From Lewinella sp. (GTDB lineage: Bacteria; Bacteroidota; Bacteroidia; Chitinophagales; Saprospiraceae), in assembly GCA_026421165.1 (NCBI GenBank), contig JAPKCQ010000006.1:1-34221 (forward strand): DNA of 34,221 nucleotides. Direction: 5' to 3'. The translations under genes were made by a program, and so were the position numbers. The notes under the pieces were generated by a model. The model was not told the DNA's origin and made no database searches. It saw only the letters and a list, made by a program, of their open reading frames with translations. Numbering within the stretch: position 1 is the first letter of the stretch; the number at the start of each line of letters is the position of its first letter. Shown one piece after another: positions 6,449 to 28,415 of the stretch.

Positions 6449-6465
6449 GCACCTGCGGCCGCGCC
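6449..6465 (+). repeat. Copy of dispersed CACCTGCG element
   Basis: GCACCTGCGGCCGCGCC in the spacer before the FG-GAP lipoprotein gene. It matches positions 3-19 of the dispersed element TTGCACCTGCGGCCGCGCC described in the findings. Confidence 0.7.
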
Positions 6466-6511
6466 TGATGACCACTTGTTTTGAACGAAAATAGGCCCGT
6501 TAAAACATCGT

Positions 6512-6519
6512 TACCTTTA
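6512..6519 (+). promoter_or_regulatory. Possible -7 element
   Basis: TACCTTTA, one base from TAnnTTTG, lies 19 bases before the ATG of the FG-GAP lipoprotein gene. The same octamer stands at the same distance before the PorP/SprF gene (29414-29421), which adds some weight. No clear -33 element is seen. Confidence 0.4.
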
Positions 6520-6538
6520 CGCACCCACAAGTAAAGTC

Positions 6539-9500
6539 ATGATGAATACGTTTCGCGCCTGTTTTCTGCTGCTACCTCTACTTCTACTGGTCGCATGCGG
6601 AGGAGAGAACATTAAGGTCACAAACACAAGTAGTTCTGCCTCGGCAGCCGAAACGGTAACCGACTTGTTCGCTAGCCAGGAACCATCTGCCACCGGAATC
6701 GGATTTGTGAATTCGGTGGAAGTGAACGAGAAATTAAACTACGTTAATTACGCCTACATCTTCAACGGTGGAGGTGTGGCAATGCTCGATTTTGACCAGG
6801 ATGGCCTAATGGACCTCTACTTCGTAAGCAACCAAAAAGAGAATAAGCTCTACCGCAACGCTGGTGACTGGGAATTTGAGGACATGACCTCAGCCGCCGG
6901 AGTAGCCGCCGTCGGAGGACTCAAATCGGGTGTAACTATTGTGGATGTAAACGCTGACGGTTATCCAGATATTTACCTGGCGCGAACGGGCTTGCAAAAA
7001 AGCAAAGGTCCCCAGCCTGAGCGCAAAAACGAACTGTTCGTCAACCAGAAAAACGGAACGTTTAAGGAGGAAGCCGGTCGCTACGGACTGGACAGCGACC
7101 GGGCCACCAACCACGCCAATTTCTTTGATTACGACGGCGACGGCGACCTGGATTGTTACCTGCTGAACATCCCAACCGATTTCAGTGCCGTTAATAAGAT
7201 GCGTGCGCAGCAGACTAAGGACGGCATAAAACGCATTACCACCCCTGCGCACGAATACGAATCGGACCAGCTGCTGCGCAACGATGGCACTCACTTTACC
7301 GACGTGACGATGGCGGCCGGACTCTACAACTACGGCTTCTCGCTCAGCTCGATTGTACACGACTTTAACCGCGATGGCCGGCCGGATATCTACATCGCCA
7401 ACGATTACATCGGATCAGATAATATTTATATAAACCAAGGCAACGGCACCTTCAAGGATCAGGCTTCTACTTACTTACGCCATTCCTCGCTTAATTCAAT
7501 GGGGAGTGACCTGGCTGACCTAAACGGCGATGACCTTCCCGATCTGGTTACCGTAGACATGCTGGCCGACGACCCCGTACGGGTTAAAAGCCTAGAAAAT
7601 GGCATGCGCCCGGATCGTTATAACTCCCTGACCCGCCTTGGTTATGGCCATCAGATGATGCGCAATCAGATGCAGATCAACAACGGAAATGGCTTCTCCG
7701 AGGTGGGCGAAATGGCCGGGATCTCCGCTACCGATTGGAGCTGGGCACCCCTCCTGGCTGATTTTGATAACGACGGAAATACCGACGTTTTTATCTCCAA
7801 CGGATACCGCTATGACGTAACAGATCTTGATTTTATCGCCTTCACTTCCGATTCGTTGATGGCCACCGGACTATTAAAAGCTTCAGATTCAAAAGCTTAC
7901 CAAACTTACCTTTCGCTGATCCCAACGGCGCCGCAATCCAATCATTTATACCGCAATTTGGGCAACCTCCAATTTGAAGAAGCAGCCGATGCTTGGGGCC
8001 TGGGAGGTAACAATTATTCCAGTAGTGCCGTATACGGAGACCTGGACAACGACGGAGATGTTGATCTCGTGGTCGCCACCCTTGATTCGCCGCCGTTGGT
8101 GTACCGAAACCAGGCAATTGAGAAAGGGGTGGGTGGTAACTGGCTGCAAATTAAGGCTGAAGGCTCCGTCGAGAATCCATTCGGCTACGGGCTTACGGCT
8201 ACTGCGGTAGTTGAAGGCCGGCGTTTCGTGCGGGAGTTACAGCCGGTTCGCGGCTTCCTAGGGTCTATCGATCCGGTCTTACACTTTGGCTTGGGCGGGG
8301 TAGACCAGATCGACCGTTTGGAGTTGCTTTGGCCCGATGGGAAGACGCAAGTTCTCGAAGATATTGCCGTAAATCAGCGCCTCATCGCAGCGTATAAAGA
8401 TGCCGGTAATGGCAAGTTGCAGGGCGCGGCCGCAGGTGCAAAGCTGTTCTCTTATCCCGCGGATCAACGGGGAATAAAATTTGTTCACCGTGAAAATGTG
8501 TTCGACGACTTCGACCGCCAGGCCCTCATCCCCAGAATGCTTAGCCGCGAAGGCCCGGCCTTGGTCATCGGAGACCTGAACGGCGACGGACGGGAAGACG
8601 CATTCTTCGGTGGAGCGGCAGGAAGCGCCTCTTCGATCTTCTTCCAAGAAAGCAACGGAACGTTCGAGGCATCGCCGAACCAACTTCCGGACGCGGAAAA
8701 ACGCTACGAAGACGTAAACGCTTTGCTCTTCGACGCGGATGGCGACGGAGACAATGACCTGTACGTAACCAGCGGCGGCAGCGCTTTTGCTAACGGTTCC
8801 GACCGTTACCAAGATCGGTTGTACCGCAATGAAGGAGGTAAGTTCGTGAGGGCCACTTTGCCGATCATGCAGACTAGTACCGGGCCCGTTCGAGCCGTTG
8901 ACTATGACGCCGACGGAGATCTGGATCTGGTGGTCGGTGGCCGTTCGGTACCCGGAGGATACCCCCGTGCGTCTCGCTCTTACCTGCTACAAAACAACGG
9001 TGGTAAATTCTCGGACGTAACGGCCAGCGCCATTCCCGAACTGGCCAACATCGGAATGGTAACGAGCATTGCTGTTGGTGATATTGAGGGGGACAACCGT
9101 CCGGAAATAGTTGTTGCCGGAGAGTGGATGGCACTCACTATTTTTACCGCAGGAGACAATGGTTACGCCCGCTCTGGCAACAGCCCGACGGGTACTTCGG
9201 GGAACTGGCAGAGCCTGCTCATCGTTGACCTGTCCGGCGACGGACAAAATGAGATCGTAGCCGGAAACGAAGGCTCAAATAGCCGCTTCAAACCCTCTCC
9301 TGAACGCCCGGTTCGCCTTTACGCCGACGACTTCGACGATAATGGAATGGTGGACCCCATCCTGACCGTTGCGGATGAAAACGGACGCATGGTTCCGATG
9401 ACGACCAAGGCTCAGTTCTTGAAACAATTGCCGGGGATGAAGAAAAAATTTGTCCGTACCAAAAACTACGCCAACGCATCGATAAACGATATTCTTACAT

Positions 9501-9907
9501 CGGAACAACTTGCGAAAGCGGCAATATTTGACCTAGAGACCGTCTTTTCAACGGTCTTTACCAGGGAGGGTGATGATTGGAAGGCAGCTCCGCTACCGAC
9601 CATTGTCCAGATATCAGCGGTCCGGGCAATCCGGGCGGCAGATTTTAACGACGATGGGAAAACTGACCTTCTGTTGGTCGGTAACGACTACTCTCTCAAT
9701 GTAGAAACCGGCCGGATGGACGGCGGCAACGGAGCCCTTCTCCTCAATGACGGCAAGGGAGAGTGGACCATCCCCTCTAACCGCGACCACGGCTTCTGGG
9801 CAAGCCTCGATGCCCGAGGTCTGGCGCCGATTAAGCTTGCGGATGGTAAGGCCGGATGGGTTGTGGTCAACAACAACGGCCCTGCTGGCTTATTTTTGGA
9901 AGAGTAG
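6539..9907 (+). CDS. FG-GAP/VCBS repeat lipoprotein with ASPIC/UnbV domain
   Basis: A 1122-residue surface lipoprotein. The signal peptide ends in LVACGG, a lipobox with the lipidated Cys near residue 20. Two arrays of FG-GAP repeats carry calcium-loop-like motifs such as DFDQDGLMDLYF, DVNADGYPDIYL, DYDGDGDLDCYL, DFDNDGNTDVFI and DADGDGDNDLYV, consistent with beta-propellers. An ASPIC/UnbV domain lies between them (about 533-617, including PFGYGLTA and LLWPDGKTQV). The second propeller half starts near residue 640. Such proteins are often found with SusC/SusD systems, but none is adjacent, so the ligand is unknown. The linker residues 629-635 (GAAAGAK) are encoded by an exact copy of the dispersed 19-bp element at 8423-8441. 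Confidence 0.92.
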   Translation: MMNTFRACFLLLPLLLLVACGGENIKVTNTSSSASAAETVTDLFASQEPSATGIGFVNSVEVNEKLNYVNYAYIFNGGGVAMLDFDQDGLMDLYFVSNQKENKLYRNAGDWEFEDMTSAAGVAAVGGLKSGVTIVDVNADGYPDIYLARTGLQKSKGPQPERKNELFVNQKNGTFKEEAGRYGLDSDRATNHANFFDYDGDGDLDCYLLNIPTDFSAVNKMRAQQTKDGIKRITTPAHEYESDQLLRNDGTHFTDVTMAAGLYNYGFSLSSIVHDFNRDGRPDIYIANDYIGSDNIYINQGNGTFKDQASTYLRHSSLNSMGSDLADLNGDDLPDLVTVDMLADDPVRVKSLENGMRPDRYNSLTRLGYGHQMMRNQMQINNGNGFSEVGEMAGISATDWSWAPLLADFDNDGNTDVFISNGYRYDVTDLDFIAFTSDSLMATGLLKASDSKAYQTYLSLIPTAPQSNHLYRNLGNLQFEEAADAWGLGGNNYSSSAVYGDLDNDGDVDLVVATLDSPPLVYRNQAIEKGVGGNWLQIKAEGSVENPFGYGLTATAVVEGRRFVRELQPVRGFLGSIDPVLHFGLGGVDQIDRLELLWPDGKTQVLEDIAVNQRLIAAYKDAGNGKLQGAAAGAKLFSYPADQRGIKFVHRENVFDDFDRQALIPRMLSREGPALVIGDLNGDGREDAFFGGAAGSASSIFFQESNGTFEASPNQLPDAEKRYEDVNALLFDADGDGDNDLYVTSGGSAFANGSDRYQDRLYRNEGGKFVRATLPIMQTSTGPVRAVDYDADGDLDLVVGGRSVPGGYPRASRSYLLQNNGGKFSDVTASAIPELANIGMVTSIAVGDIEGDNRPEIVVAGEWMALTIFTAGDNGYARSGNSPTGTSGNWQSLLIVDLSGDGQNEIVAGNEGSNSRFKPSPERPVRLYADDFDDNGMVDPILTVADENGRMVPMTTKAQFLKQLPGMKKKFVRTKNYANASINDILTSEQLAKAAIFDLETVFSTVFTREGDDWKAAPLPTIVQISAVRAIRAADFNDDGKTDLLLVGNDYSLNVETGRMDGGNGALLLNDGKGEWTIPSNRDHGFWASLDARGLAPIKLADGKAGWVVVNNNGPAGLFLEE
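8423..8441 (-). repeat. Dispersed CACCTGCG element inside a coding region
   Basis: The minus strand reads TTGCACCTGCGGCCGCGCC, identical over 19 bases to the intergenic copy at 23708-23726. It is read in frame as GAAAGA plus the first base of K, at the junction between the ASPIC domain and the second propeller. Confidence 0.7.
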
Positions 9908-9952
9908 GTAGGCGCTAGAGCGACGTTGCCTCCGGTGATGAGACGGGGATGA

Positions 9953-9967
9953 GTGGCCTCCGGCCAC
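9953..9967. terminator. Short hairpin after the FG-GAP gene
   Basis: GTGGCC (9953-9958) and GGCCAC (9962-9967) form a 6-bp stem with a 3-base loop, 45 bases past the stop. There is no T-tract, so it is a weak terminator candidate at best. Confidence 0.3.
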
Positions 9968-10111
9968 GCGATTGGTTAGTGCTGACGCGCTAAGATCATA
10001 GTTTACCGCAGGAAAGAACGCATGGAAGAGATTGGTTTCTCTCGCTTGTGGGAACATCGGCTCAGCGCACAGTTTAGACTACAGGGTGGCCCACTAGATT
10101 GGAGGAAGTCA

Positions 10112-10717
10112 TCAAATCATAAACTCAATCTCACCCTCCCCATCATAGCGGGCATTAACGGCGCGGAAGTGGCCGAGCTCGTCCCGCTGTCGCCGTTTAA
10201 CGGTGTAATCTGCGGCACAGAGTACGTCGGAACGGATCTTACCGAAGCTGGTGGGTAGCTGGTTTGATCCCTGACCAACAGCCGTGCAACAAACGAGCGG
10301 AGCTTCCAGGTCCTCACCGAGGCGGTAGACGAAGCTGTCCATAGCTAGGCGTACGGCAACCTCGCCGCGGGCATCGATCAACGCCAGTGGGGCACGGGGT
10401 CCGGCGGGTACCAGGAGGGTTAAGGGGCGTTTATGGTAGGATAGTAGGGTGTAGAGCCTGGGGTGAATCTTAGGGCACCAAGCGAAGAGTGTTTCCTGAT
10501 CATGGAATACCAGCTCCGGCCGGTTGGCGGGGGAAGGCGGGCAAACGATGAGCAGTTTTTGAACAGCAGCGGGGTGTTGTGGATGTGCAGAAAGTTGCCA
10601 CAGGTTGGCGGTTGGCAAAAGTACCAGGCCGCCGGCGTGGAGGGTGGGCAAGGCTCGGGAGCCCCGGGGAGGCAACGGGTGGCGCATCTCTGAGAGAATA
10701 TTAGTCCTCATGTCCAT
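10112..10717 (-). CDS. Sua5/YciO/YrdC-like protein with degenerate catalytic motifs
   Basis: 201 residues. The fold signature of threonylcarbamoyl-AMP synthase is recognisable: AGGLVLLPTANLW near 28-40 in place of the family's GG-ILYPTDTIWG, then HPRLYTLLSYHKRPLTLLVP, GEVAVRLAMD and a C-terminal FGKIRSDVLCAADYTV with YDGEGEIEF. The residues that make the enzyme work are altered. PTDT reads PTAN, the KxR motif is replaced by a CPPSP stretch, and the STSAN motif reads CCTAV. I infer a paralogue of Sua5 that no longer makes threonylcarbamoyl-AMP or does something else; a functional Sua5 should exist elsewhere. The start may be the ATG at 10717 or the one two codons later. The gene is convergent with the FG-GAP lipoprotein gene. 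Confidence 0.72.
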   Translation of the reverse strand: MDMRTNILSEMRHPLPPRGSRALPTLHAGGLVLLPTANLWQLSAHPQHPAAVQKLLIVCPPSPANRPELVFHDQETLFAWCPKIHPRLYTLLSYHKRPLTLLVPAGPRAPLALIDARGEVAVRLAMDSFVYRLGEDLEAPLVCCTAVGQGSNQLPTSFGKIRSDVLCAADYTVKRRQRDELGHFRAVNARYDGEGEIEFMI

Positions 10718-10855
10718 ATCACTTTTTGGAAAGGCGGACTGCTTTAATCGGGGCAGTGGCCGGGGTTTCAGTATAACTGTGAGGTGTGTATAAATATCCG
10801 GTCACCAGTGGGTGATACCGGTAGTGGAAAACACAAACTTTAACTTTCGGGACTA

Positions 10856-10863
10856 TAATTTTG
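10856..10863 (+). promoter_or_regulatory. -7 element upstream of the PKD/CHU_C gene
   Basis: TAATTTTG matches TAnnTTTG perfectly, 105 bases upstream of the proposed TTG start. This would leave a long 5' leader. No TTG is seen at the -33 spacing. The rest of 10718-10968 holds no gene that I can support. Confidence 0.4.
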
Positions 10864-10968
10864 TCAGCTAAGATCGAAAATGACGCTTTTTTAGGACGCT
10901 GACCGTAGCTTTCAGACTAGGAACCCGTATTTTGCCGTTAAGATTGTACCCTCCCTAAAATTTTAAGA

Positions 10969-13317
10969 TTGAGCTTCAAGAAACTATCGCCCCAAAGCCT
11001 TTTTTTTACACTGGCTCTCATATTTTTTCCATTTTCGGAAATCTTCGCTGATCATATTGTCGGTGGCGAATTCACCTATTCCTGTAGGGGCTGGTTGAAC
11101 GATGATCCTAGTACGGGGATCAAGGTTTACGACTGCCAGATTAATATGTACCGGGATTGTGTCGGAGACGGTGCTTATTTCGATGGCGTTAATACTGATC
11201 AAAATGGAGGGGTAGGACCCAATGGTTTTTCTAGTTCTCAGATGAATATTTCTATTTATCAAGGAACGACCATCTACGAAGCAACCAGGATATTCCTACT
11301 CGGGCCGGTGGCGGATGTGCCCATCAATTTGGGTAATCCTTGCCTTGAATTTGAAGAGGAGGTTTGTCAACAGATTGGTGTCTATGATTTTGAGATTGAA
11401 TTACCCGTTTCTGATCAGTCGTATACGCTTACTTATCAGCGCTGCTGCCGGAATATGACGATTTCTAACCTGATTACCCCCTCTCAGATTGGGTCCACTT
11501 ATTTCATTACCATAACTCCGGAAGCACAACAGCAGTGTAACGAGAGCCCACGATTTAACATCAATCCTCCGATCGCTCTATGCGTAAACGCGGATTTTCA
11601 AATTGACCTCGGAGCTTCCGAAAGGGAGGGTGATAGTCTCGTCTATAAATTTTGCGACCCCATTGTTGGTGGCGGACGGGACGGTAACATGACTACTCAA
11701 ACGACATTTGATGATGTAGTACCTAGAGTCGAATCTCCTCCTCCCTACACCGCTGCCAGCTTTCAGATGCCCCAGTTTAACGTGGATAATCAGCTTGGAG
11801 TTGGCAGTACGCTTATTCTTGATCCACAAACGGGGCTTATGTCGGGCAACCCAGCTTTTCGGGGGACTTTCTCTTTGGCCATCTGTGTTGAGGAATGGAG
11901 CCGGGATAGTATTCCCGTACTGCTGAGTCAGACGAAGCGGGAGTTCCAGATGACGGTGGGGCTGTGTGGCAACCAGGTGTTTGCTGACCTTCTGGAAACA
12001 GAAATCGATGCTCAGGGCCGTTTCTTCATCCGCCAGTGCGGACCGGGCCAGAACACGATCATTAATGAAAGTACCGTTGAGCGGTTCATTACTGAATACT
12101 CCTGGGAACTTGAGGGGCCGGATGGGTTAATCGCGGGTTCTAACCGTGACTTTACTTCTACCATCACGACGGTTGGCACTTATGAAGGGACGATGATTCT
12201 TAACCGTAGTTCGATTGCGTCGAACTGCCGGGATACAGCCACCTTCTTGCTCGGGGTATTTCCAGATACCGAGCCTAACTTTGAGTTCACCGTTCCTGGG
12301 TGTGATGATGAGCCGATTGACTTTACGGATTTGTCTGTTCCGCAGGGGGCTAATAATATTACCGACTGGTCCTGGAATTTTGCGGATAACTCTAATGAGG
12401 ATACCCGCCAAAATCCGCGCCACCGCTACAGAATCCCCGGTAATTTCGGTGTAACCCTCACTACCACGGATGATAATGGTTGTAGGGCAACCGTCACTAA
12501 TAACCTGGGGTACTTTCCCAGCCCGCGGACAATCATCATCGAACCAGAGGAGGGCTTCGGCTGTGCACCTTACACCAAGGAGTTTATCAATCTGAGCCAA
12601 CCCATTAACGACGATTACATCTTCGAGTGGGAATTTGGAGATGGTGGCACCGCGGATATCGCTAGCCCGACCTACGTCTACGAAAATCAGGGAGTGTACG
12701 ACGTCTACCTCGGTATTACCAGCCCCACTGGTTGTTTTGTGGATACTACTTTCGCTAACCTGATAGACGTTCGGGACGCACCAATGGCAGACTTTAGCTG
12801 GACCCCGGAGGAGCCGACGAACATTCTCCCTAATATTCGGGTGATAGACCAGAGCACAGGAGCTAACCAGCGCCGGTACATACTTAGGAACTCTGCAGGA
12901 GATCAGCTCTTTACCACGCCGTTTCAGGATTTTGATTATACTTTACGCGATACCGGCCGGGTGTTCATCACCCAGCTTGTTACCCATCCCAGCGGCTGTG
13001 TTGACACCATCACGAAAGATTTGAACCTAAGGTTAATCAATACTTATTTTCTGCCGAATATCTTCACGCCGAACGGCGACGGGCTGAACGATTCTTTCTT
13101 CCCCGTCGGCCTGCTCAATGGAGTTAAAGACTACCGCCTACGTGTCTGGACGCGCTGGGGTGAGTTGGTGTTCTCAACTAATACCATCAAGGACAGTTGG
13201 GACGGTACCTTCAAAGGCAGCCAGAGCCCTGGCGGTGGCTACATTTGGGACGTTCAGTATACTGACGTCAATGGTGATCCGGAAGCCCTGAAGGGAGGGG
13301 TTGTGTTGGTTCGGTAG
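10969..13317 (+). CDS. Secreted PKD-domain protein with gliding-motility C-terminal (type B) sorting domain
   Basis: 782 residues. The signal peptide spans about residues 1-27 (hydrophobic LFFTLALIFFPFSEIFA), followed by DHIVGGEFTY, a common start of large Bacteroidota surface proteins. Two PKD-like modules lie in the second half (WSWNFADNSNEDTRQNPRHR and FEWEFGDGG-TADIASPTYVY). Residues about 699-782 form the CHU_C/gliding-motility domain: FTPNGDGLNDSF, WTRWGELVF, WDGTFKG, GGGYIWDV. This domain is used as a type IX secretion signal of type B. The start is TTG: an in-frame stop lies at 10939-10941 and no ATG or GTG stands between. The gene ends at a large palindrome and probably codes for a cell-surface or released adhesin. 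Confidence 0.9.
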   Translation: MSFKKLSPQSLFFTLALIFFPFSEIFADHIVGGEFTYSCRGWLNDDPSTGIKVYDCQINMYRDCVGDGAYFDGVNTDQNGGVGPNGFSSSQMNISIYQGTTIYEATRIFLLGPVADVPINLGNPCLEFEEEVCQQIGVYDFEIELPVSDQSYTLTYQRCCRNMTISNLITPSQIGSTYFITITPEAQQQCNESPRFNINPPIALCVNADFQIDLGASEREGDSLVYKFCDPIVGGGRDGNMTTQTTFDDVVPRVESPPPYTAASFQMPQFNVDNQLGVGSTLILDPQTGLMSGNPAFRGTFSLAICVEEWSRDSIPVLLSQTKREFQMTVGLCGNQVFADLLETEIDAQGRFFIRQCGPGQNTIINESTVERFITEYSWELEGPDGLIAGSNRDFTSTITTVGTYEGTMILNRSSIASNCRDTATFLLGVFPDTEPNFEFTVPGCDDEPIDFTDLSVPQGANNITDWSWNFADNSNEDTRQNPRHRYRIPGNFGVTLTTTDDNGCRATVTNNLGYFPSPRTIIIEPEEGFGCAPYTKEFINLSQPINDDYIFEWEFGDGGTADIASPTYVYENQGVYDVYLGITSPTGCFVDTTFANLIDVRDAPMADFSWTPEEPTNILPNIRVIDQSTGANQRRYILRNSAGDQLFTTPFQDFDYTLRDTGRVFITQLVTHPSGCVDTITKDLNLRLINTYFLPNIFTPNGDGLNDSFFPVGLLNGVKDYRLRVWTRWGELVFSTNTIKDSWDGTFKGSQSPGGGYIWDVQYTDVNGDPEALKGGVVLVR

Positions 13318-13415: not shown

Positions 13416-13436
13416 GAAGGCTCAGAAACTTACTTA

Positions 13437-13449
13437 GCACCTGCGCCCG
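13437..13449 (+). repeat. Partial copy of dispersed CACCTGCG element
   Basis: GCACCTGCGCCCG, sharing the core but not the GGCCGCGCC tail, between the palindrome and the end of the GapN-type gene. Confidence 0.45.
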
Positions 13450-17610: not shown

Positions 17611-17675
17611 GGGGTGTAAGGTACGGGCTTCTGTTTTACAGTCTCAATTCTATTGCTTAGGAAAATAATTTGGGC

Positions 17676-17693
17676 GGCGGTGCGCAGGTGCAA
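17676..17693 (-). repeat. Copy of dispersed CACCTGCG element
   Basis: The minus strand reads TTGCACCTGCGCACCGCC: the first 11 bases match the dispersed element and the tail diverges. It lies in the spacer upstream of the ABC ATPase gene. Confidence 0.55.
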
Positions 17694-18549: not shown

Positions 18550-19437
18550 TTAATCCTCAGGTACTAAATAATCTTCCCGCCCAGCAGGTATAACTCCCCG
18601 GTCCCTTCCCTGTCCCAGAAAGCCAGCTACCGCAGCGCGACCCTCGGGGCCTAGCTCCAGCGAATATTGATTGACGTAGAGCGCGATGTGCTTGCGCCGA
18701 ACTTCCGCGTCCATTTCTTGCGCGTGAGCAGCGACGTATTCAGCGGAAGCATCGGGATGGTTGAAAGCGTACTGGACGGAACGGGCCAGAATGCGGTCAA
18801 ACGTTCTCTGGACCTCGGACGGGACAGCGCGCTTGATGACGATGCCGCCCAGGGGGATAGCGTGGCCGGTGGTGGACTCCCAGTATTCGCCGAGGTCCAT
18901 CAGTTTATGGAGGCCGCGCTCGTGGTAAGTGAAGCGGTTTTCATGGATCAGCAGTCCGGCGGTGAATTCACCGGAGAGTACCCGGCTTTCGATGTCGGAG
19001 AAGAGCACTTCCTGCTTGTTCGTTAATTGGGGCTGGGCGAGACCGAGGAGGTAGTTGGCGGTGGTGTACTTACCCGGGATGGCGATCGGAGTTTCGGGGA
19101 GGAGGACATTGCTGTTTTTGTCCTTTCCTTGCACCTGCGTTCGCGCCGAAAAAACATCCGCCAGTGCTTCATCTGCCGTTACTAATAATGGACCAACGCC
19201 CCGCCCCAGCGCACTGCCAGAATTAAGCAGCGCATAGGTCTCCGTGAGGTGGCCAAAGGCATGGTAGCTAAGCTTGGTTACGTCCAGTTCGCCGGCAAAA
19301 GCCAGCTGGTTGAGCTCCTCAACGTCGCCCAGGCGAACATCAAACGTTAGGCCTTCGGTATCAATACGACCATGGACCAGGGCGTCGAAAATGAAGGTGT
19401 CGTTGGGGCAGGGGGAAAAGCCGAGGGTAAGCTGCAT
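18550..19437 (-). CDS. mqnD: 1,4-dihydroxy-6-naphthoate synthase
   Basis: Acts in the futalosine route to menaquinone, converting cyclic de-hypoxanthine futalosine to 1,4-dihydroxy-6-naphthoate. The 295 residues carry LGFSPCPNDTFIFDAL (5-20), LDVTKLSYHAFG (51-62), SGSALGRGVGPLLV (73-86), IAIPGKYTTANYLL (118-131) and LLIHENRFTYHERGL (162-176). I chose the ATG at 19437 because the family begins at this point (MQLTLGFSPCP); an upstream extension to 19698 would overlap the divergent rluA-type gene antisense. Residues about 96-115 look like an extra segment compared with my memory of the family. Part of it (residues 97-103, SARTQVQ) is encoded by a copy of the dispersed CACCTGCG element. The mqnB gene lies 12 kb away. 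Confidence 0.93.
   Translation of the reverse strand: MQLTLGFSPCPNDTFIFDALVHGRIDTEGLTFDVRLGDVEELNQLAFAGELDVTKLSYHAFGHLTETYALLNSGSALGRGVGPLLVTADEALADVFSARTQVQGKDKNSNVLLPETPIAIPGKYTTANYLLGLAQPQLTNKQEVLFSDIESRVLSGEFTAGLLIHENRFTYHERGLHKLMDLGEYWESTTGHAIPLGGIVIKRAVPSEVQRTFDRILARSVQYAFNHPDASAEYVAAHAQEMDAEVRRKHIALYVNQYSLELGPEGRAAVAGFLGQGRDRGVIPAGREDYLVPED
19129..19147 (+). repeat. Dispersed CACCTGCG element inside mqnD
   Basis: TTGCACCTGCGTTCGCGCC differs from the consensus at two positions. It is read on the minus strand in frame as SARTQVQ, within a segment that appears inserted between conserved parts of MqnD. Confidence 0.6.
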
Positions 19438-19480
19438 GGTGAAAAGCGATTTCTGATTTAACGGCTGCGTAGGCAGGCGG

Positions 19481-19510
19481 TTGTAATGCCGCTGGAATAA
19501 CCGACCTTTG
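19481..19510 (+). promoter_or_regulatory. Promoter of the RluA-type gene
   Basis: TTG (19481-19483), a 19-base spacer and GACCTTTG (19503-19510) fit the Bacteroidota -33/-7 arrangement, with one mismatch in TAnnTTTG. The -7 box lies 17 bases before the ATG at 19528. Confidence 0.5.
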
Positions 19511-19527
19511 CGCTCAATCCCGTAATT

Positions 19528-20232
19528 ATGAATTTTCAGGTTCTCTTCGAAGACAATCACCTTATCGCCATCAATAAGCCCGCCGGCGTCCTCAGTCAGG
19601 GCGACGTCACCGGCGATGACACCGTGATGGACTGGGCTAAAAGCTACATCAAACACCGCTACAATAAACCGGGCGATGTGTACCTCGGCCAGATCCACCG
19701 CCTCGACCGGCCGGTGAGTGGCGTCATCCTCTTCGCCCGCACCAGCAAGGCACTAACCCGGATGAACGAGATGTTTAAAGAGCGGAAAATAACCAAGACC
19801 TACTGGGCCGTGGTGACCAATCAGCCCGATCCGATTGAAGGCGACCTGAAAGGATACATATATAAGGATGCGGAGAAAAACCGCAGCAAGATCGTCCCGA
19901 AGGCCGATTCTAACCGGCACAAAGGAGCCAAACTGGCCAAGCTGAGTTATAAAGTTATGGGCCGCATCGGTACCAACGTCCTGCTGAACATCAAACTCGA
20001 TACCGGCCGCCCGCACCAAATCCGTGTGCAACTGGCCGATCAATTGAAAACCCCCATCCGCGGCGACATCAAGTACGGCTCGCAGCAACGCAACGATGAC
20101 ACAAACATTAACCTGCACGCTCGCTCGCTGGAGTTTCTGCACCCGGTGAAGAAAGAACAGGTCAAGATTACAGCCCAGGTGCCGCGGGAAGACCAGATTT
20201 GGGGGCTCTTCCATGAGATGGAGGAGTGGTAG
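19528..20232 (+). CDS. RluA-family pseudouridine synthase
   Basis: Isomerises specific uridines in rRNA or tRNA. The 234 residues match the catalytic domain of the RluA family: FEDNHLIAINKPAGVLSQ (7-24), the catalytic motif GQIHRLDRPVSGVILFAR with Asp60, and TGRPHQIRVQLA near 175. There is no N-terminal S4 domain, so it is the short form. The exact target uridine cannot be assigned. The ATG at 19528 gives MNFQVLFEDNHLIA, the usual start. It is divergent from mqnD with a 90-bp spacer and has a good promoter. Confidence 0.9.
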   Translation: MNFQVLFEDNHLIAINKPAGVLSQGDVTGDDTVMDWAKSYIKHRYNKPGDVYLGQIHRLDRPVSGVILFARTSKALTRMNEMFKERKITKTYWAVVTNQPDPIEGDLKGYIYKDAEKNRSKIVPKADSNRHKGAKLAKLSYKVMGRIGTNVLLNIKLDTGRPHQIRVQLADQLKTPIRGDIKYGSQQRNDDTNINLHARSLEFLHPVKKEQVKITAQVPREDQIWGLFHEMEEW

Positions 20233-20238: not shown

Positions 20239-20281
20239 GATAAGGGATTGGCGATAAGTGATAAGCGATTTTGCTGCCGCA
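20239..20281 (+). repeat. Left flanking direct repeat (GATAAG...GCTGCCGCA)
   Basis: A run of GATAAG/GATTGG units ending in GATAAGCGATTTTGCTGCCGCA read in two parts: GATAAGCGATTT then TGCTGCCGCA. The right copy at 20559-20594 ends GATAAGCGATTT then GGCTGCCGCA, a 22-base match with one difference. Confidence 0.7.
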
Positions 20282-20377
20282 AGCAAGAAACCGACTTCAC
20301 CAATCATTAATGCTCCGTAGACCACACAGAGCCCCGGTGGGGCGTCTTTCATGGCGAGGGGTGGAGCGAAATGGCGA

Positions 20378-20558: not shown

Positions 20559-20594
20559 GATAAGCGATAAGGGATAAGCGATTTGGCTGCCGCA
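20559..20594 (+). repeat. Right flanking direct repeat (GATAAG...GCTGCCGCA)
   Basis: GATAAGCGATAAGGGATAAG followed by CGATTTGGCTGCCGCA, the partner of the copy at 20239-20281. The last nine bases also match the arm of the palindrome at 13319. Confidence 0.7.
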
Positions 20595-21926: not shown

Positions 21927-22369
21927 ATGATGAAACTTTACGATTACCCGTTCAGGTTGGCCCCTTGGTATGTGCTCTTTGCGCCATGCATGGGTGTCTG
22001 ACCTATCCTTCTTTTTATAGGCACCGGACGGGACGCTGTGAGGGTGTAGCGTTGAACGGTACAGGCAACGCACTTGACCTTGCTTTCAACGCTGACTTTG
22101 CTTCTACAACGGCTCAGAACGTGCTCTTCCAGAACACGCCTAACCCGGTTGTTAACGTGACTATGATCACCTTCGAACTTGCCGCTGCCGGTACTGCTAC
22201 CCTGAACGTTCAGGATGTAACTGGTCGTTTGGTAAAGACGGTTGAAGTCGACGGTGTTGCTGGTCTGAACCAGATCGAAGTGCAGAACATCGGTGCTGCT
22301 GGTGTTTACGCCTACACGCTGACTTCTGGTAACTTCACTGCTACCAAGCAGATGGTTGTTGTTAAGTAA
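21927..22369 (+). pseudogene. Relic of a type IX-secreted protein (orphan C-terminal sorting domain)
   Basis: From about 22050 to the TAA ending at 22369 the sequence encodes a clear type A type IX sorting domain: FQNTPNPVVNVTMITFEL, GTATLNVQDVTGRLVKTVEV, GVYAYTLTSGNFTATKQMVV. No gene body precedes it. Its frame opens only at a TTG (21965) and gives a Cys-rich, unexportable start. In another frame, ATG-ATG at 21927-21932 begins a 24-codon stretch that could be an old signal peptide (KLYDYPFRLAPWYVLFAPCM) and stops at 21999-22001. I infer that the middle of a secreted protein was deleted, leaving both ends out of frame. A strong terminator remains downstream. A real short protein is less likely. 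Confidence 0.65.
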
Positions 22370-22416
22370 TTCTGCGGCCTGAGGGTCATTGAATAGCAGC
22401 GTGAAAGCTGCCGAAC

Positions 22417-22452: not shown

Positions 22453-22814
22453 CGATTGCCTTGTTTTTTAAGGGACGCGAATTAAATAAAACGTATTTTT
22501 CAACCTGACACTTTTGCGCTCATCGCACTTGAAAACTCTTGGCAAAAGGTAGCGGATTTTTTCAAGGCGAGCAACAGAAGGACTCACGTTCCTTTTATGA
22601 CGTTCCTCGCTTCGCGACGATAAGACGGCCTGAAGGACGTTGAACAGTAGCCCGACCGCCGTAGGTAGTTGTGTAGCGAATACTACCGAAAGGACACTCA
22701 TCGAAAAAATACGGCACTTTATCGAAAGAACCAAAACCTCCAACTGTCACGGATTAAGTTTGTGCTAAATTATTTAACCGTAGCCCCTTTCGGGATGCAC
22801 CAATTAAGAATACA
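22453..22814. other. Gene-free spacer with repeat-like content
   Basis: A minus-strand frame of 91 codons (22468-22743) is open, but its product has no family resemblance and no start context that I trust. The sequence has repeat-like pieces (GGACTCACGTTCC near 22582, GGACGTTGAAC near 22636). The bases before 22815 may hold a promoter (TTTG at 22759-22762), although the -7 match is poor. Confidence 0.35.
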
Positions 22815-23543
22815 ATGAAGAAATTACTTACCCTCGCCCTCATGCTGGTATTCGCCACCAGCCTCTTTGCCCAAGAAGCTCCAACTGTGGAGGAAATTGC
22901 CAAAACCTATATTGAGAATATGGGTGGAGTAGATGCCATGAAGGCAGTGAAAGCTACTACAGTTAAGGGGAAGGCAAGCATGCAGGGTATGGAGTTCCCC
23001 ATCACCATCACTGCTTCTGAAGGAGACATGCAGCACGTGGAAATCAACGTTCAGGGCCAGAAAATTATCCAGGCTTATGACGGAGAGACTGCTTGGCAGA
23101 TCATGCCGTTTGCGGGCATTACGGAACCGACGGAGATGTCTGAAGAAGAAGCAGAGCAAATGAAAGATACGCGCTTTCTTTCCGAATTTATTGATTCGGA
23201 AGAGCGTGGTTTTACACTGGAAAGTGCGGAAAGTAAGGAAGTAGAAGGTACGCCGACCTACGGTGTGCGGGTGACCAACGAGACTGGCTACGACCACATC
23301 TGGTATTTCGATACGGAGTATATGATTCCGGTGATGATGACTAGCCAAGTAAAGTCGGGGCCACAGAAAGGTTCTACGATGGAAACCTACATGAGTGACT
23401 ACCAGGAAGTGGAAGGGCTGATGATCCCAATGTTCATGGAAGTGAAATTTGATGGGGCAACGGTACAGAAGATTACCATGAGTGAGGTCATTATCAATCC
23501 TGAAATCGATAAGACCATGTTCTCCATACCTAAGAAGAACTAA
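22815..23543 (+). CDS. LolA-like exported protein (outer-membrane lipoprotein-sorting superfamily)
   Basis: 242 residues with a signal peptide (MKKLLTLALMLVFATSLFAQ). The mature part begins PTVEEIAKTYIENMGGVDAMKAVK, an arrangement common in Bacteroidota periplasmic proteins annotated as lipoprotein-sorting proteins. It continues as alternating beta strands (ITITASEGDMQHVEINVQGQ, AYDGETAWQIMPFAG, DHIWYFDTEYMIPVMM, DYQEVEGLMIPMFMEVKFDG), consistent with the half-barrel that holds a lipid chain in LolA/LolB. It is not a classical LolA and the ligand is unknown. A terminator follows directly, so it is transcribed alone or as the last gene of its unit. Confidence 0.78.
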   Translation: MKKLLTLALMLVFATSLFAQEAPTVEEIAKTYIENMGGVDAMKAVKATTVKGKASMQGMEFPITITASEGDMQHVEINVQGQKIIQAYDGETAWQIMPFAGITEPTEMSEEEAEQMKDTRFLSEFIDSEERGFTLESAESKEVEGTPTYGVRVTNETGYDHIWYFDTEYMIPVMMTSQVKSGPQKGSTMETYMSDYQEVEGLMIPMFMEVKFDGATVQKITMSEVIINPEIDKTMFSIPKKN

Positions 23544-23566
23544 GAAAGCCATCCACGTATTTGATC

Positions 23567-23609
23567 CGGCCGGGTTTTCCAGATACAGGAGAATCCGGCC
23601 GTTGTTTTT
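23567..23609 (+). terminator. Intrinsic terminator
   Basis: CGGCCGGGTTTTCC (23567-23580) pairs with GGAGAATCCGGCCG (23588-23601) through two G-T pairs, followed by TTGTTTTT, 24 bases past the stop of the LolA-like gene. Confidence 0.8.
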
Positions 23610-23616
23610 CAAATGT

Positions 23617-23634
23617 GGCGCTGGCGCAGGTGCA
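23617..23634 (-). repeat. Copy of dispersed CACCTGCG element, inverted
   Basis: The minus strand reads TGCACCTGCGCCAGCGCC. It faces the plus-strand copy at 23708-23726, so the two can form a long hairpin with about 73 bases between them. Confidence 0.6.
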
Positions 23635-23707
23635 GGGTGGGGGACGAGGTACGGTAGCTACGAAGCACCGGTTTACAGTCTACTAACCATGCTCTTTAAA
23701 CCTCTTT

Positions 23708-23726
23708 TTGCACCTGCGGCCGCGCC
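23708..23726 (+). repeat. Copy of dispersed CACCTGCG element
   Basis: TTGCACCTGCGGCCGCGCC, taken here as the reference sequence of the family. It is identical to the complement of 8423-8441 inside the FG-GAP gene. Confidence 0.75.
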
Positions 23727-23793
23727 CTGAAAAGCGCTCGTAATGCACCTTTGAACCTTGTCAGGACCATAATATTCATAAGCTATATTCATC

Positions 23794-26700
23794 ATGAGAC
23801 AAATATTTACACTAATACTCTTGGCCTTCGTTACGGTACTTTCAGCCCAGAAGGAATTCAAGACTACCACGGCTCTTTTCGGCGACTTGCGCGCTCGCCA
23901 GATCGGCCCCGCCGTAATGAGTGGTCGGATAAGCTGCCTAGCTGTGAACCCGAAAGATGCCACCACAATTTTTATTGGCGCAGCAGGCGGCGGTGTGTGG
24001 AGAACGACTTCATCTGGCGGACAGGTACAGCCTGTTTTTGACGACCACCCCCAGAGCATTGGCGCCATAGCGATCTCACCCTCCAATACGGATGTGGTCT
24101 ACGTTGGAACGGGAGAACCATGGACGCGTAATAGTATCAGTGTCGGTGCAGGGGTTTATAAATCAACGAATAACGGTTCAGATTGGAAAGCCATCGGCCT
24201 GGAAAATACCGAACGTATAGCAGATATCTCCGTACACCCGGAAGACGCGAATGTGCTCTACGTCGCCGCCATGGGACACCTTTGGGACAGCAACGAAGAA
24301 CGCGGCGTTTTCAAATCAGCCGACGGGGGAACAAGCTGGGAAAAGGTGCTCTACATTGACGAAGACACCGGAGCAGCCAACCTGGCCATGGACCCCAATA
24401 ACCCCGACGTGCTCTACGCCGCCATGTGGAGCCACCGCCGCCTACCCTGGACGTTTGACTCCGGCCTGCACGGCAAATCTGGCCTCTATAAAACCACCAA
24501 CGGCGGCAAAACGTGGAACAAACTGACCAACGGCCTGCCCGACGAAAAACTCGGCCGGATCGGCATTGAAGTGGCTCCGAGTAACAGCAACATCCTCTAC
24601 GCAAGCGTGGAAACCGGAACCTTAGAAACTAAGGGGATGTACCGTAGTGAAGACGGCGGCGCCAATTGGAAAATGATTGGCCGCAACCAAAATACCGGCA
24701 TCCGGCCTTTCTATTTCAGTGAACTGGAGATTGACCCAAACAACCCTGACATTGTAGCAAAGTGCGGCCTGAACGGCATCATCAGCGAAAACCAGGGAGC
24801 TACCTGGCGGACCCTCGACGGGCGCGTGCATTCTGATTTTCACGACATCTGGATCGACCCGGCCAACGGAAAGCACATTCTCGTTGGTACCGACGGCGGC
24901 GTTTACGAGAGTTACGACCGGGGTTACACCTTTAAGATGTGGATGAACCTGCCCGTAAGTCAGTTCTACCACGTCAGTGTCGACAACGCAAAGCCTTACC
25001 GGGTATACGGTGGTTTACAGGACAACGGCTCCTGGTTCGCGCCAGCAACGAGCGCCGGCGGCATCACCAATTCTGATTGGAAGAAAACCTTTGGTGGCGA
25101 CGGATTCTATAGTTTTCGCCACCCGGCCAAAGAGCACATCGTATTCAGTGAGTACCAGGGCGGTAAGCTTGTCCGCTACGATGAGCGGACCGGGCAAGCC
25201 AAGTCTATTCCACCCTATGCGACCACTGGAGAAGATGAATTACGTTTCAACTGGAACGCTCCCGTACACGTAAGTAAAGACGGGGAGCGACTTTACTTTG
25301 GTGCTCAATACTTGTACCGTTCTACAAATGACGGAGACAGCTGGGATCGCATCAGCCCGGACCTAACCACCAACGATCCTGAAAAGCAACAACAACAGCT
25401 CAGCGGTGGCCTGAGCATCGACAACTCTACGGCGGAGAACCATACCACCATCTACGTAATTGCAGAAAGCCCGCTGGACAAGAATACGGTTTGGGCCGGT
25501 ACGGACGACGGTAACCTGCAGGTTACCCGCGACGGTGGTAAGACCTGGTCAAAGGTCAACGAAAACGTTCCCGGCCTTCCGGCTAATACCTGGGTAACCT
25601 TCGTGGAACCCAGCCCGCACGACGCCAATACCGCCTTCGTAACTTTTGACGGCCACCGAACAGGGGACATGAATACCTACCTGTATAAAACCACCGACGG
25701 AGGGGAGACCTGGACAGATATTGGTGATACTTCCATCTTCGGCTACTCGTTGAGCGTACGCCAAGATCTGGTAAATGCTAGTCTCTTGTTTCTAGGCACA
25801 GAGTTCGGCCTCTACATCAGCCTCGATGGCGGTAGCAGCTGGGCGCCCTTTAGGAATAACCTACCGATGGTCGGTATCCGGGACATGGTCATTCAGGAAC
25901 GGGAGGCCGATCTGGTGATGGCCACCCACGGTCGTGGGATCATCATTCTGGATGATCTCGAAGCGCTGCGGCAGCTTACGCCGGAAGTGACCGCTAAGAA
26001 ATTCACCTTCCTGAACGTGAAGCCAGCCTATCTCGGCGATGGTGCTGGTATTGGGATGGGAGACTTTGGTGGTAGCGGCACCTTCGTTGGCTTGAATCAG
26101 CCGCGTGCTGCGCGCATTATGTACTATAACCAACGCCGGCACATGTTCGGTAAGATGTACGTTGAGGTGTGGAAAGATGGAGAACTACTCAGGACGATGC
26201 AGGCTGGTAAGGGAGCAGGCCTTAACGTTGTGGAGCTCCCCACGTCGATCAAGAAGCCCAGGGCCGCACCTACGAATAACCGCATGGCACTTTTTGGAAC
26301 TCTCTCCGGCCCGAACCTACCCGCGGGTAAATATGATGTGAAGTTAATTAAAGGCAAAGAGACCTTTGAAACTCAGATCGAACTGACCGTGGAGGACGAT
26401 GATGTTTACAGCGTAGCTGATCGTGAAGCTCAGCGCAAAATCCTGATGGCGGTCTACAACGATACCGAAGAGCTGGCCTGGATTTACGACACTTACGAAC
26501 GAATTGAAACCCAGGCAAAAGCTCTTACCCCCACAAAGAAAAAGGCCGTAGAAATGGTAACTGGAATAGTGGAGAGTGCAGCTAAGGCTAAGGCAAACCT
26601 AGTGTTCCTTGGCGGAGACTTCTACGTTGACGAAGGAGCTCGCCTACGGGAAGAAATGGGTAGCCTCTACTTTGATATCAGTACCTTTCCCGGCCAGCCA

Positions 26701-26976
26701 TCGGATAGTCAGGAACAAGAAGCTCTCCGGATTCACGGTGAAATGGTGAGGGTTAAAGCTAAGTTTGAAGCTATGCTGAAGGGTCAGGTCGCGGCGCTGA
26801 ACGAGAAGCTCGTGGAAGACGAACGTATCCGCTGGTCTTCAAAAGCGGATTTCCTTGCTGCCGAATCTATAGGCTCCGATGCGGGCTCTCAGCGGCAGCG
26901 CTGGACGGGAAATACGCTTTGGAAGGATGCATTGGTTAATCCTTTGGGAGGTGCCTGGGTGCGGTTGTTGCATTAA
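23794..26976 (+). CDS. Large secreted BNR/sortilin-type beta-propeller protein
   Basis: 1060 residues. The signal peptide is MRQIFTLILLAFVTVLSAQ. Many Asp-box/BNR-like repeats follow: YKSTNNGSDWKAIG, FKSADGGTSWEKVL, YKTTNGGKTWNKLT, YRSEDGGANWKMIG, YRSTNDGDSWDRIS, VTRDGGKTWSKV and YKTTDGGETWTDIG. Together they imply one or two seven- to ten-bladed propellers (residues about 25-710), as in VPS10/sortilin-like or WD40/YVTN proteins often labelled glycosyl hydrolase. Residues about 715-1060 form a helical and beta C-terminal part without a recognisable catalytic or type IX sorting domain. Enzyme activity cannot be claimed. The start at 23794 gives a clean signal peptide. Confidence 0.88.
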   Translation: MRQIFTLILLAFVTVLSAQKEFKTTTALFGDLRARQIGPAVMSGRISCLAVNPKDATTIFIGAAGGGVWRTTSSGGQVQPVFDDHPQSIGAIAISPSNTDVVYVGTGEPWTRNSISVGAGVYKSTNNGSDWKAIGLENTERIADISVHPEDANVLYVAAMGHLWDSNEERGVFKSADGGTSWEKVLYIDEDTGAANLAMDPNNPDVLYAAMWSHRRLPWTFDSGLHGKSGLYKTTNGGKTWNKLTNGLPDEKLGRIGIEVAPSNSNILYASVETGTLETKGMYRSEDGGANWKMIGRNQNTGIRPFYFSELEIDPNNPDIVAKCGLNGIISENQGATWRTLDGRVHSDFHDIWIDPANGKHILVGTDGGVYESYDRGYTFKMWMNLPVSQFYHVSVDNAKPYRVYGGLQDNGSWFAPATSAGGITNSDWKKTFGGDGFYSFRHPAKEHIVFSEYQGGKLVRYDERTGQAKSIPPYATTGEDELRFNWNAPVHVSKDGERLYFGAQYLYRSTNDGDSWDRISPDLTTNDPEKQQQQLSGGLSIDNSTAENHTTIYVIAESPLDKNTVWAGTDDGNLQVTRDGGKTWSKVNENVPGLPANTWVTFVEPSPHDANTAFVTFDGHRTGDMNTYLYKTTDGGETWTDIGDTSIFGYSLSVRQDLVNASLLFLGTEFGLYISLDGGSSWAPFRNNLPMVGIRDMVIQEREADLVMATHGRGIIILDDLEALRQLTPEVTAKKFTFLNVKPAYLGDGAGIGMGDFGGSGTFVGLNQPRAARIMYYNQRRHMFGKMYVEVWKDGELLRTMQAGKGAGLNVVELPTSIKKPRAAPTNNRMALFGTLSGPNLPAGKYDVKLIKGKETFETQIELTVEDDDVYSVADREAQRKILMAVYNDTEELAWIYDTYERIETQAKALTPTKKKAVEMVTGIVESAAKAKANLVFLGGDFYVDEGARLREEMGSLYFDISTFPGQPSDSQEQEALRIHGEMVRVKAKFEAMLKGQVAALNEKLVEDERIRWSSKADFLAAESIGSDAGSQRQRWTGNTLWKDALVNPLGGAWVRLLH

Positions 26977-27023
26977 TTATGAAGGGCTGTACCCAACCTT
27001 GATTACGTCCGGGGACCTATTTG

Positions 27024-27083
27024 ACCGCTATTAAGCTCTTGTTCTTCCAGCTTCAGCCTGAAGAACAGCAGCTTAATAGCGGT
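27024..27083. terminator. Long hairpin between convergent genes
   Basis: ACCGCTATTAAGCT (27024-27037) pairs perfectly with AGCTTAATAGCGGT (27070-27083), and GTTCTTC (27041-27047) with GAAGAAC (27060-27066). It sits between the BNR protein gene and the RlmL-like gene and could end both transcripts. It lacks a clear T-tract, so it may instead be a palindromic repeat. Confidence 0.6.
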
Positions 27084-27090
27084 TAAGTAG

Positions 27091-28257
27091 TTACTCCTCT
27101 TCTTCTTTAAATTTCCGCGTACCAGCGTACAGTTCGTATTTGGCAAACCGGACTTCAATCGGCCCGTTCATGAGCGGAATGCGGCGACTTGTTTTTAGCC
27201 CGACGGACTTCAATCCTTCGGGGCTACCGGTGATGAGCCAGGCGGAATAACCTTTCCAGTTTGTCTTGAAAGTATCGCCCATCATTTCGTAGAGCTCCTC
27301 AATGTTACCTGTTTTGAGGCGTACCTCGTACGGCGGGTTCGTGACGAGTATACCACCTTGTTCGCCTTCTAGTGGAGTGGGGGCGAGCAGCTGATCGAAG
27401 GGTATTGATTGGAATTCGATGTGACTGACCTGGTCGGTGCGTTCGAGGGATATTTTTGCTAGGCGGAGCGTAAGTTCGTCGATATCGTTGGCTAGAATGG
27501 GGTGGGGTGGGGTGCGGACTTTATTGCGTGCCTCCTGGCGGATGGAAGCCCAGAGCGCGGGGTCGAAATCTGGCCAGCGTTCGAATCCGAAGGAGCGATT
27601 GAGGCCGGGTGCTTGGTGGGCGGCGATCATTGCTGCTTCTGCAATGATGGTTCCGGAACCGCACATGGGGTCGCAGAAAGGTACTTCTCCGTCGTATCCG
27701 GCGAGGGTGAGCAGGCCGGCGGCTAGTACTTCGTTGATGGGCGCTCCGCCTGTCCGTTTGCGATAGCCGCGCCGGTGGAGGCTGTCGCCTGAGCTGTTGA
27801 GGCTTACACTGACCTGGTCGTCACGGGTTACATGAAGGTTCAACGTCATGTCTGCGTCTTCTTTGCTCACGCTTGGCCGTTCACCGGTCTTTGCCCGGAA
27901 CTGATCGACGATTGCATCCTTAGAAAGCTGACTTAAGTAAACAGCGTTGCGGTGATATTCTGACTGGGTATTGGCGTCGATCCAGAGGAAGCCGTCTACT
28001 TTAAGGTAGGGGCTCCAGTCGATAGCCTTCAGCTGATCATACATCTCCTGCTCATTACGGGCGCGGAAGGTGGCGAGTTCGGTTAGTACCCTGATGCCGG
28101 TCCGGAGGTTCAGGTTGGCACGGTACATGAGGGACTGGTCTCCTTTGCACATCACGACCCTGCGGCCGGGTTCAACATCGGATGCCCCAAGGGCGGTAAG
28201 TTCGGCGGCAAGGATTTCTTCGAAGCCCTCGAAGGTGGTGATGGCGAATGTTTTGAT
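27091..28257 (-). CDS. THUMP-domain class I rRNA methyltransferase (RlmL N-part/YcbY-like), unusual start
   Basis: SAM-dependent base methyltransferase acting on large-subunit rRNA. The conserved body includes the THUMP region (GDQSLMYRANLNLRTGIRVL), the SAM motif CDPMCGSGTIIAEAAMIAA, FGFERWPDF and the catalytic LVTNPPYEVRL. The first ATG (28155) and the GTG before it (28158) lie inside the THUMP domain. In-frame translation of the preceding 33 codons reads IKTFAITTFEGFEEILAAEL then TALGASDVEPGRRV, which is plainly the missing N-terminus. No ATG, GTG or TTG occurs in that stretch. I therefore propose initiation at ATC (28255-28257, or 28240-28242); otherwise the protein is truncated or the start codon is mutated. 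A TATCTTCG box lies about 20 bases upstream. Confidence 0.85.
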   Translation of the reverse strand: MKTFAITTFEGFEEILAAELTALGASDVEPGRRVVMCKGDQSLMYRANLNLRTGIRVLTELATFRARNEQEMYDQLKAIDWSPYLKVDGFLWIDANTQSEYHRNAVYLSQLSKDAIVDQFRAKTGERPSVSKEDADMTLNLHVTRDDQVSVSLNSSGDSLHRRGYRKRTGGAPINEVLAAGLLTLAGYDGEVPFCDPMCGSGTIIAEAAMIAAHQAPGLNRSFGFERWPDFDPALWASIRQEARNKVRTPPHPILANDIDELTLRLAKISLERTDQVSHIEFQSIPFDQLLAPTPLEGEQGGILVTNPPYEVRLKTGNIEELYEMMGDTFKTNWKGYSAWLITGSPEGLKSVGLKTSRRIPLMNGPIEVRFAKYELYAGTRKFKEEEE

Positions 28258-28396
28258 GGCTGTGTGATTTTGCGTGATTCGGGGCGAAGATAGGGGGCAC
28301 GGTGCGGTTTTACCGGGATTTTGGAGGAATAGCCAGCCTAGCGGCCGCCGGAGGGGGAGTTGTTAATAAAGTGACCTCCAGGTTTGGAACGTATTC

Positions 28397-28415
28397 TTGC
28401 ACCTGCGTCCGCGCC
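28397..28415 (+). repeat. Copy of dispersed CACCTGCG element
   Basis: TTGCACCTGCGTCCGCGCC, one base from the reference, in the spacer between the NlpC/P60-like gene and the RlmL-like gene. Confidence 0.7.

Follow-up and report, generated by a model that had tools for sequence, protein, structure and literature searches.

The excerpts of PMC1626085 (2006) consulted here describe uptake sequences as known solely from Pasteurellaceae and Neisseriaceae, where the uptake signal sequence (USS) and the DNA uptake sequence (DUS) occur at about one copy per kb without orientation bias, prefer non-coding DNA and keep a strong consensus; the same excerpts report some close, oppositely oriented pairs, stable sites, subclade types and gaps in 24% of USS alignments. 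In excerpts of PMC3630211 the DUS comes in eight dialects, among which CTG is conserved. The available part of PMC7965970 reports for Riemerella columbina (Flavobacteriaceae) a preference for DNA of its own; the k-mers tabulated there are A/T-rich words only, unconfirmed. Besides these k-mers, the literature searched, with subscription journals mostly outside the search, added no further phylum, contained no uptake sequence in Bacteroidota and gave no description of the repeat reported here. The reason why uptake sequences evolved is an open question. Here we describe a dispersed element of ~45 bp found in a 34,221-nt stretch of Lewinella sp. DNA (contig JAPKCQ010000006.1 of assembly GCA_026421165.1, positions 1 to 34,221; the window), and by comparison with these systems we lean towards reading it as an uptake-sequence-like self-recognition motif.

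The element is a real, genus-wide, dialect-forming DNA word. In the window, the core CACCTGCG has eight exact sites, where shuffling predicts 1.21 and not one shuffle in 100 reached eight, and the 19-mer allowing up to three mismatches has six sites against 0.00 expected. The preliminary description, made from the window alone, had listed eight such sites with about one due to chance, and all of them lie where it placed them; its further statements, that five sites share the 11-mer TTGCACCTGCG, that 8423-8441(-) and 23708-23726(+) are identical across all 19 bases, that six sites are intergenic and two lie in genes (8423 in gene 6539-9907, 19129 in mqnD, ORF 18550-19698), and that a degenerate relative may lie near 31121-31146, were likewise borne out (Table 1). 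A genome-wide repeat, which it also supposed, is seen in the genome of the window (G000; 4,498,065 bases in 485 contigs, completeness 98.92), where TTGCACCTGCG has 363 copies (189+174) against one of the reversed word, and the 17-mer GCACCTGCGNNNGCGCC has 480 against none. The comparison set comprised 21 genus genomes (G000 and 20 relatives) and 39 others of the same family or order. Across the genus the 17-mer ranges from 0 to 1176 copies (reversed control 0-2), with at least 100 in 12 of the 20 relatives and extremes of 0 in G001, 3 in G010 and 1176 in G006, and the 39 outsiders hold four in total (three in G021, one in G049). Bare TTGCACCTGCG occurs 0-9 times in the outsiders, slightly above the reversed control in G023 and G047. 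A scan of named records for TTGCACCTGCGNNNGCGCCC found at least 117 stretches; among the 80 listed, most were titled Neolewinella or Lewinella, and the matches listed also included several rows of a 'Bacteroidia bacterium' metagenome-assembled genome (MAG), one Saprospiraceae MAG and eight single rows from Proteobacteria, Bacillus and Nocardia. A phage origin was rejected on a scan of IMG/VR, in which 79 of 80 stretches had one match and one had two, counts for which the chance level was not computed; two of the 80 stretches came from the same 38.7-kb contig.

A profile of 49 exact sites of G000 and 62 of G002, repeated on six genomes, shows conservation from about -21 to +25. The unit of ~45 bp consists of a pyrimidine tract, C-n-TTGCACCTGCG, three variable bases, GCGCCC and an A-tract; the first tract is rich in C and T, with T peaking near -4 and near -14, C stands at -2, and the bases after GCGCCC are A-rich. 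Species differ in their preferred variable triplet (GCA in 35 of 48 G013 sites, GCC in 22 of 54 G000 sites), and information content is 33-39 bits per site in every dialect measured. In 367 kb of G000 the word occurs 44 times without mismatch, 41 times with one and 11 times with two, against 0, 0 and 1 for the reversed control, and perfect copies dominate over one-mismatch copies in G002 (63/21), G014 (31/12) and G010 (31/18); the words counted have 16-17 scored positions against 9-12 in published cores, with reversed controls of 0-1/0. A core with A/T-rich flanks, the absence of orientation bias and long-lived sites are features that the element shares with Pasteurellaceae USS as the excerpts of PMC1626085 describe them, as are non-coding preference with many genic copies and subclade-specific types. 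Unlike USS, the element is of unrelated sequence and phylum, longer, and bipartite, with 11 and 5 bases around the variable triplet. A site of this kind could instead be bound in the cell by a chromosomal protein such as a nucleoid organiser, a segregation factor or a repair factor, with selection on chromosome function keeping the sites and co-evolution making the dialects. This explanation is the main rival to uptake, and we judge it rather unlikely: genome-wide spread suits it, but 33-39 bits per site greatly exceed the ~13 bits that, by our own estimate, would suffice to single out ~1000 sites among 9 million positions. One perfect word also roughly equals its single-mismatch variants taken together in number, and within one genus copy number runs from 0 to 1176.

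G010 and G001, which are poor in this word, use others. Under an order-4 Markov model the top 10-mer in 320 kb of G010 is TGCTACTTTG (79 copies, 1.5 expected) and that in 340 kb of G001 is CTGCGCTCCG (26 copies, 1.7 expected). Genome-wide, TTGCTACTTTG is found 826 times in G010, as against 0-4 copies in each of the 20 others of the genus and 0-9 in each of the 39 outsiders, and the private word of G010 (loci L171, L172 and L311-L324) is TTGCTACTTTG(nn)AGCCAAAA; CCTGCGCTCCGNCGC is found 494 times in G001, 190 in G007 and 80 in G015, while each remaining member of the genus has 0-43 copies and the outsiders have none. Dialects 1 and 3, aligned on TTGC by eye, have the common skeleton C-n-TTGC-nn-CT-nn-G-nnn-GC-n-C, then A, which a chromosomal protein would also account for. 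In a tree of MqnD from 20 genomes (G018 had no MqnD match), which is a single-gene tree with an arbitrary root, G001 groups with G007 (100/99), a single cluster unites ten dialect-1 genomes (96/99) and G010 stands apart on a long branch. G008 with 114 copies and G011 with 110, neither of them in the dialect-1 cluster, come near its poorest members (G015 167, G019 181). Main dialects are named for those genus members of which enough sequence was read; G004, which is not among them, has 11 copies of dialect 1 and 9 of dialect 2. Thus, as in known uptake sequences, related taxa share a word or have dialects that track phylogeny, the phylogeny here being that of one gene. The pattern resembles that of Neisseriaceae DUS, whose dialects, each particular to a species or clade and built on a conserved core, are described in the excerpts of PMC3630211 and were found as over-represented 10-mers; the dialects described here are more divergent. 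Other over-represented words were noted in G007 (ATTCACTAAT/ATTCAGTCAT, L341-L350), G005 (TACGCTTGTTGCTGTA, L166-L168) and G013 (AGTCTATAGT and ACTACAGACT, L169-L170 and L174-L193).

Strands are balanced genome-wide (for example 258/222, 387/433 and 314/310), the most uneven abundant genome being G011 (69/41), and the first 400 kb of one long contig carry 38 copies on the plus and 47 on the minus strand. Chi (crossover hotspot instigator) sites and KOPS (FtsK-orienting polar sequences) are short and strand-skewed. The element is like them an over-represented chromosomal word, but it is long and strand-neutral; a signal of the Chi/KOPS type was rejected on this balance, and the lack of such a bias also counts against a chromosomal binding protein. 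As for placement, with up to two mismatches the intergenic share is 50 of 96 sites in G000, 53 of 95 in G002, 37 of 92 in G013 and 26 of 51 in G014, at a coding fraction of 80-89% (G000 about 80%) according to a simple gene caller made for the analysis; only 46 of the 96 G000 sites are genic in a genome that is 80% coding, hence intergenic DNA is enriched. This enrichment would agree with transcription signals such as terminators, promoters or processing sites, yet about half of the copies are genic on either strand, orientation relative to flanking genes is mixed (59/41/39/22 over four arrangements) and the window has no Rfam match, so that we consider transcription signals very improbable; a structured RNA was rejected on the same Rfam result. 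Antisense in-gene sites, named loci included, are spread over the three frames as 60, 40 and 5, i.e. 100 of 105 are in two frames, GAAAGA and ARxQVQ being tolerated and RGRRC avoided, and sense sites as 34, 34 and 25, where by eye the element can code APAAAP linkers or a lipobox-like CTCG. Such a frame pattern would be the expected outcome of a drive at the DNA level filtered by protein function.

Copies are retained at orthologous places. With up to two mismatches, a copy is kept in 14 of 15 site-genome pairs whose flanks are 67-81% identical, against 1 of 82 random points; this test took only places fetched for their genes, named loci and paralogue loci being left out. A wider ortholog test gave 44 of 58 rows with up to three mismatches and 3 of 114 in the control; we do not use it, since the named loci in it had been fetched for the motif and its rows were redundant. 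Intergenic cores outlive poorly aligning surroundings at 6447, at 17683 and at the pair 23617/23708. Conservation at ortholog positions is also what a chromosomal protein would produce.

Many near-identical copies could also arise from a very short mobile or copied element, resembling either miniature inverted-repeat transposable elements (MITEs) or repetitive extragenic palindromes (REPs) and their paired form (REPINs), which an unknown transposase would have spread and which were then kept. Like REP/REPIN sequences with their REP-associated tyrosine transposase (RAYT, of the Y1 type), the element has hundreds of short dispersed copies and some inverted pairs, and divergent pairs at 44-91 bp occur in G002 and G000. 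But divergent pairs below 100 bp number nine in G002, three in G014, two in G000 and none in G013, where chance gives ~2 pairs of any orientation each, and the excess is clear in G002 only. Moreover, the profile holds no inverted repeat, and the unit is monomeric, asymmetric and not palindromic, on which grounds, with dimers in clear excess in G002 alone, a palindromic insert or MITE was rejected. Y1_Tnp was searched in the 21 genus genomes, and 30 loci were scanned out of more matches: 13 have a copy within about 1.5 kb, roughly what the background density would give (~1 per 4 kb in rich genomes, not computed per locus), and one is flanked on both sides, by degenerate copies about 670 and 1410 bp away. 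None of the 30 is closely flanked, and a REP/RAYT origin was rejected on this result; G018 has 675 copies and no Y1 match. The preliminary description had thought of a REP-like unit or of a palindromic insert in genes, and neither idea is supported; its suggestion of a protein binding site would be right in a broad sense.

The in-gene copies bear on the same question. Five enzymes hand-picked as conserved-looking, not at random, were compared with homologues, and four were gapless over the encoded part: in HisD the copy codes VGADAGA over VIADTTA of PDB homologue 6an0; the G010 dialect in MiaA stands just after the P-loop (LAIKVAK) and aligns without a gap to the PDB homologue; in MiaA of N. 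lacunae dialect 1 lies elsewhere in the protein, where the encoded part is gapless and a gap of one residue stands a few positions ahead of it; and a FadH-like enzyme is gapless over the encoded residues against its PDB homologue. In several conserved genes codons thus appear to have been replaced in place, which neither a mobile element nor a palindromic insert would readily give. MqnD gained length: about 28 residues stand where PDB homologue 2czl (TTHA1568) has nine, low-copy relatives have a short loop, and the gain in this variable loop is about 14 residues or more, so the extra segment is absent from distant orthologues as the preliminary description had proposed. In a BioF-like enzyme (named by eye) copies of different species stand at slightly different places in one loop, which suggests independent gains. 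For the GAAAGAK segment, the element-encoded peptide is present in G014 and in one N. agarilytica locus, the only two compared. Separately, the MqnD loops of L105/L166 (G005) and L108/L125 (G002) share a peptide SLRDASRS beside the element, possibly the product of another repeat entering the same loop.

Taken together, DNA uptake sequences with their dialects match the element better than does a REP or a palindromic insert, and of the single explanations uptake ranks first. On this reading a DNA receptor at the cell surface or in the periplasm would bind ~45 bp, namely the common skeleton with its T-rich and A-rich flanks; fragments of own DNA carrying the motif would preferentially be taken up and recombined; and biased uptake would spread the word by replacing alleles that do not have it, as in Pasteurellaceae and Neisseriaceae. 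That the binding protein works in DNA uptake is what we infer. Among eight features of uptake sequences that were examined, the element shows four: it is abundant, has no orientation bias, prefers non-coding DNA while also lying in genes, and forms dialects. Three others (consensus strength, gain by substitution and spacing) give a mixed picture, and the eighth, pilus machinery, was not found.

Several observations weigh against uptake. Density at up to two mismatches is 0.21-0.36 per kb, whereas known USS and DUS reach ~1 per kb, so that the element is about 3-5 times sparser than USS. Consensus strength and gaplessness are also less clear-cut than in USS: perfect and one-mismatch copies number 44/41 in G000, 15/15 in G001, 35/42 in G013 and 2/7 in G007, and our confidence in uptake is reduced because a strong consensus is clear in only some genomes. 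Sites are not significantly evenly spaced (85 sites; coefficient of variation 0.80, Kolmogorov-Smirnov p 0.11). The fifth hand-picked enzyme, SsuD-like, has a one-residue gap, and in 22 rows drawn from 198 in-gene sites and aligned with low-copy outgroups, eight are gapless (three of these, L049, L176 and L264, are gapped just outside the counted window, two of them near the protein start) and 14 are gapped, nine of the latter being MqnD. These gapped rows, together with the loop gain in MqnD, are what a mobile element would leave; on the whole evidence we still regard a mobile origin as improbable. Comparable dialect sites numbered 8 of 44 in G010, with five gapless and three gapped, and 2 of 12 in G001, with one of each, gapless L315 and L321 being also gapped just outside the window counted. 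In-place codon replacement is therefore clear for some genes, while its overall share is not settled.

Of the competence machinery, ComEC (PF03772) is present in 21 of 21 genus genomes and DprA (PF02481) in 20 of 21, the sole miss being 55% complete, but both also match control genomes such as E. coli and so prove nothing. The pilus machinery seen with uptake sequences was not found: PF00437, the pilus/secretion ATPase, gave no full-length match in the 21 genus genomes, of which 11 barely reach the family cut-off through partial matches (E 1.3e-5 or weaker, spanning about 84 of the 370 positions and lying in frames 940-1070 residues long), whereas two genomes of other families of the order match strongly (8.0e-123 and 1.4e-126). 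We read the partial matches as probably unrelated ATPases. The lack of a convincing pilus ATPase sets the genus apart from USS bearers, and it would be natural if a chromosomal protein were the binder. Nor does the literature searched, mostly without subscription journals, report competence in these species. DUS are 10-12 bp long. The available parts of PMC3868556 and PMC12061091 name as their receptor the type IV minor pilin ComP; in Neolewinella no pilin machinery was seen, PF00437 being the one pilus family tested, and a type IV pilus or Neisseria-style pilin receptor is unlikely. The receptor would hence be an unfamiliar one, because the genus gave no full-length match to the type IV pilus ATPase.

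A stronger proposal has in our view close to an even chance: the Bacteroidota genus Neolewinella would have a self-DNA uptake code with at least three dialects (TTGCACCTGCGnnnGCGCC, TACCTGCGCTCCGCCGCC and TTGCTACTTTGnnAGCCA), its receptor would be something other than a type IV pilin, and the motif would be the first DNA uptake sequence to come from beyond the Proteobacteria. If true, an independent and apparently pilus-less case with three dialects in one genus would be a natural replicate, allowing phyla to be compared in receptor, code and species barrier. Self-specific uptake would then be a route of gene exchange for these marine bacteria, and the motif a handle for transforming them.

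Table 1. Copies of the element and its conserved unit in the window
Feature	Position	Strand	Remarks
Element copy	6447..6465	+	Intergenic, upstream of gene 6539-9907; full copy at the G014 ortholog position, none found in G003
Element copy	8423..8441	-	Within gene 6539-9907 (FG-GAP lipoprotein of the preliminary description); frame GAAAGAK; identical in G014
Decayed copy	13435..13449	+	AGCACCTGCG alone remains; full TTGCACCTGCGTACGCGCC at the G014 ortholog position
Minor subtype TTGCACCTGCG-CACC-GCCGCCC	17672..17693	-	3' half CACCGCCGCCC, like the G001 dialect; 1-2 changes in G014 and G003, flanks diverged
Element copy in mqnD	19129..19147	+	Antisense to the gene; codes SARTQVQ in the length-variable loop
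Divergent pair, left member	23617..23635	-	91 bp spacing to partner
Divergent pair, right member	23708..23726	+	Both cores kept in G014 and G003; DNA between them differs
Conserved unit of ~45 bp around 23708	23687..23733	+	From pyrimidine tract to A-tract; extent taken from the genome-wide profile
Element copy	28397..28415	+	Intergenic; G014 keeps the copy with one mismatch
Degenerate copy	31116..31134	-	Four mismatches ungapped, explained by extra bases (by eye); usual upstream AAACCTTCC tract present

The window also holds other repeats. A second family, AAGCGAT repeats then GATTTnGCTGCCGC, lies at 20239-20283 and 20564-20594, with related copies elsewhere in G000, in G014 and in G005. At the contig end (2-43 and 110-138), CTTTTAGACG occurs three times on the plus and twice on the minus strand; it has 19 copies in 367 kb of G000 and 0-2 in six other stretch sets counted. 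Finally, positions 21965-22369 code for a protein fragment with a C-terminal QNTPNPV...VVK domain, which we take to be a secretion sorting domain, and which has many paralogues in the genus, one of them (L043:388) with the element.

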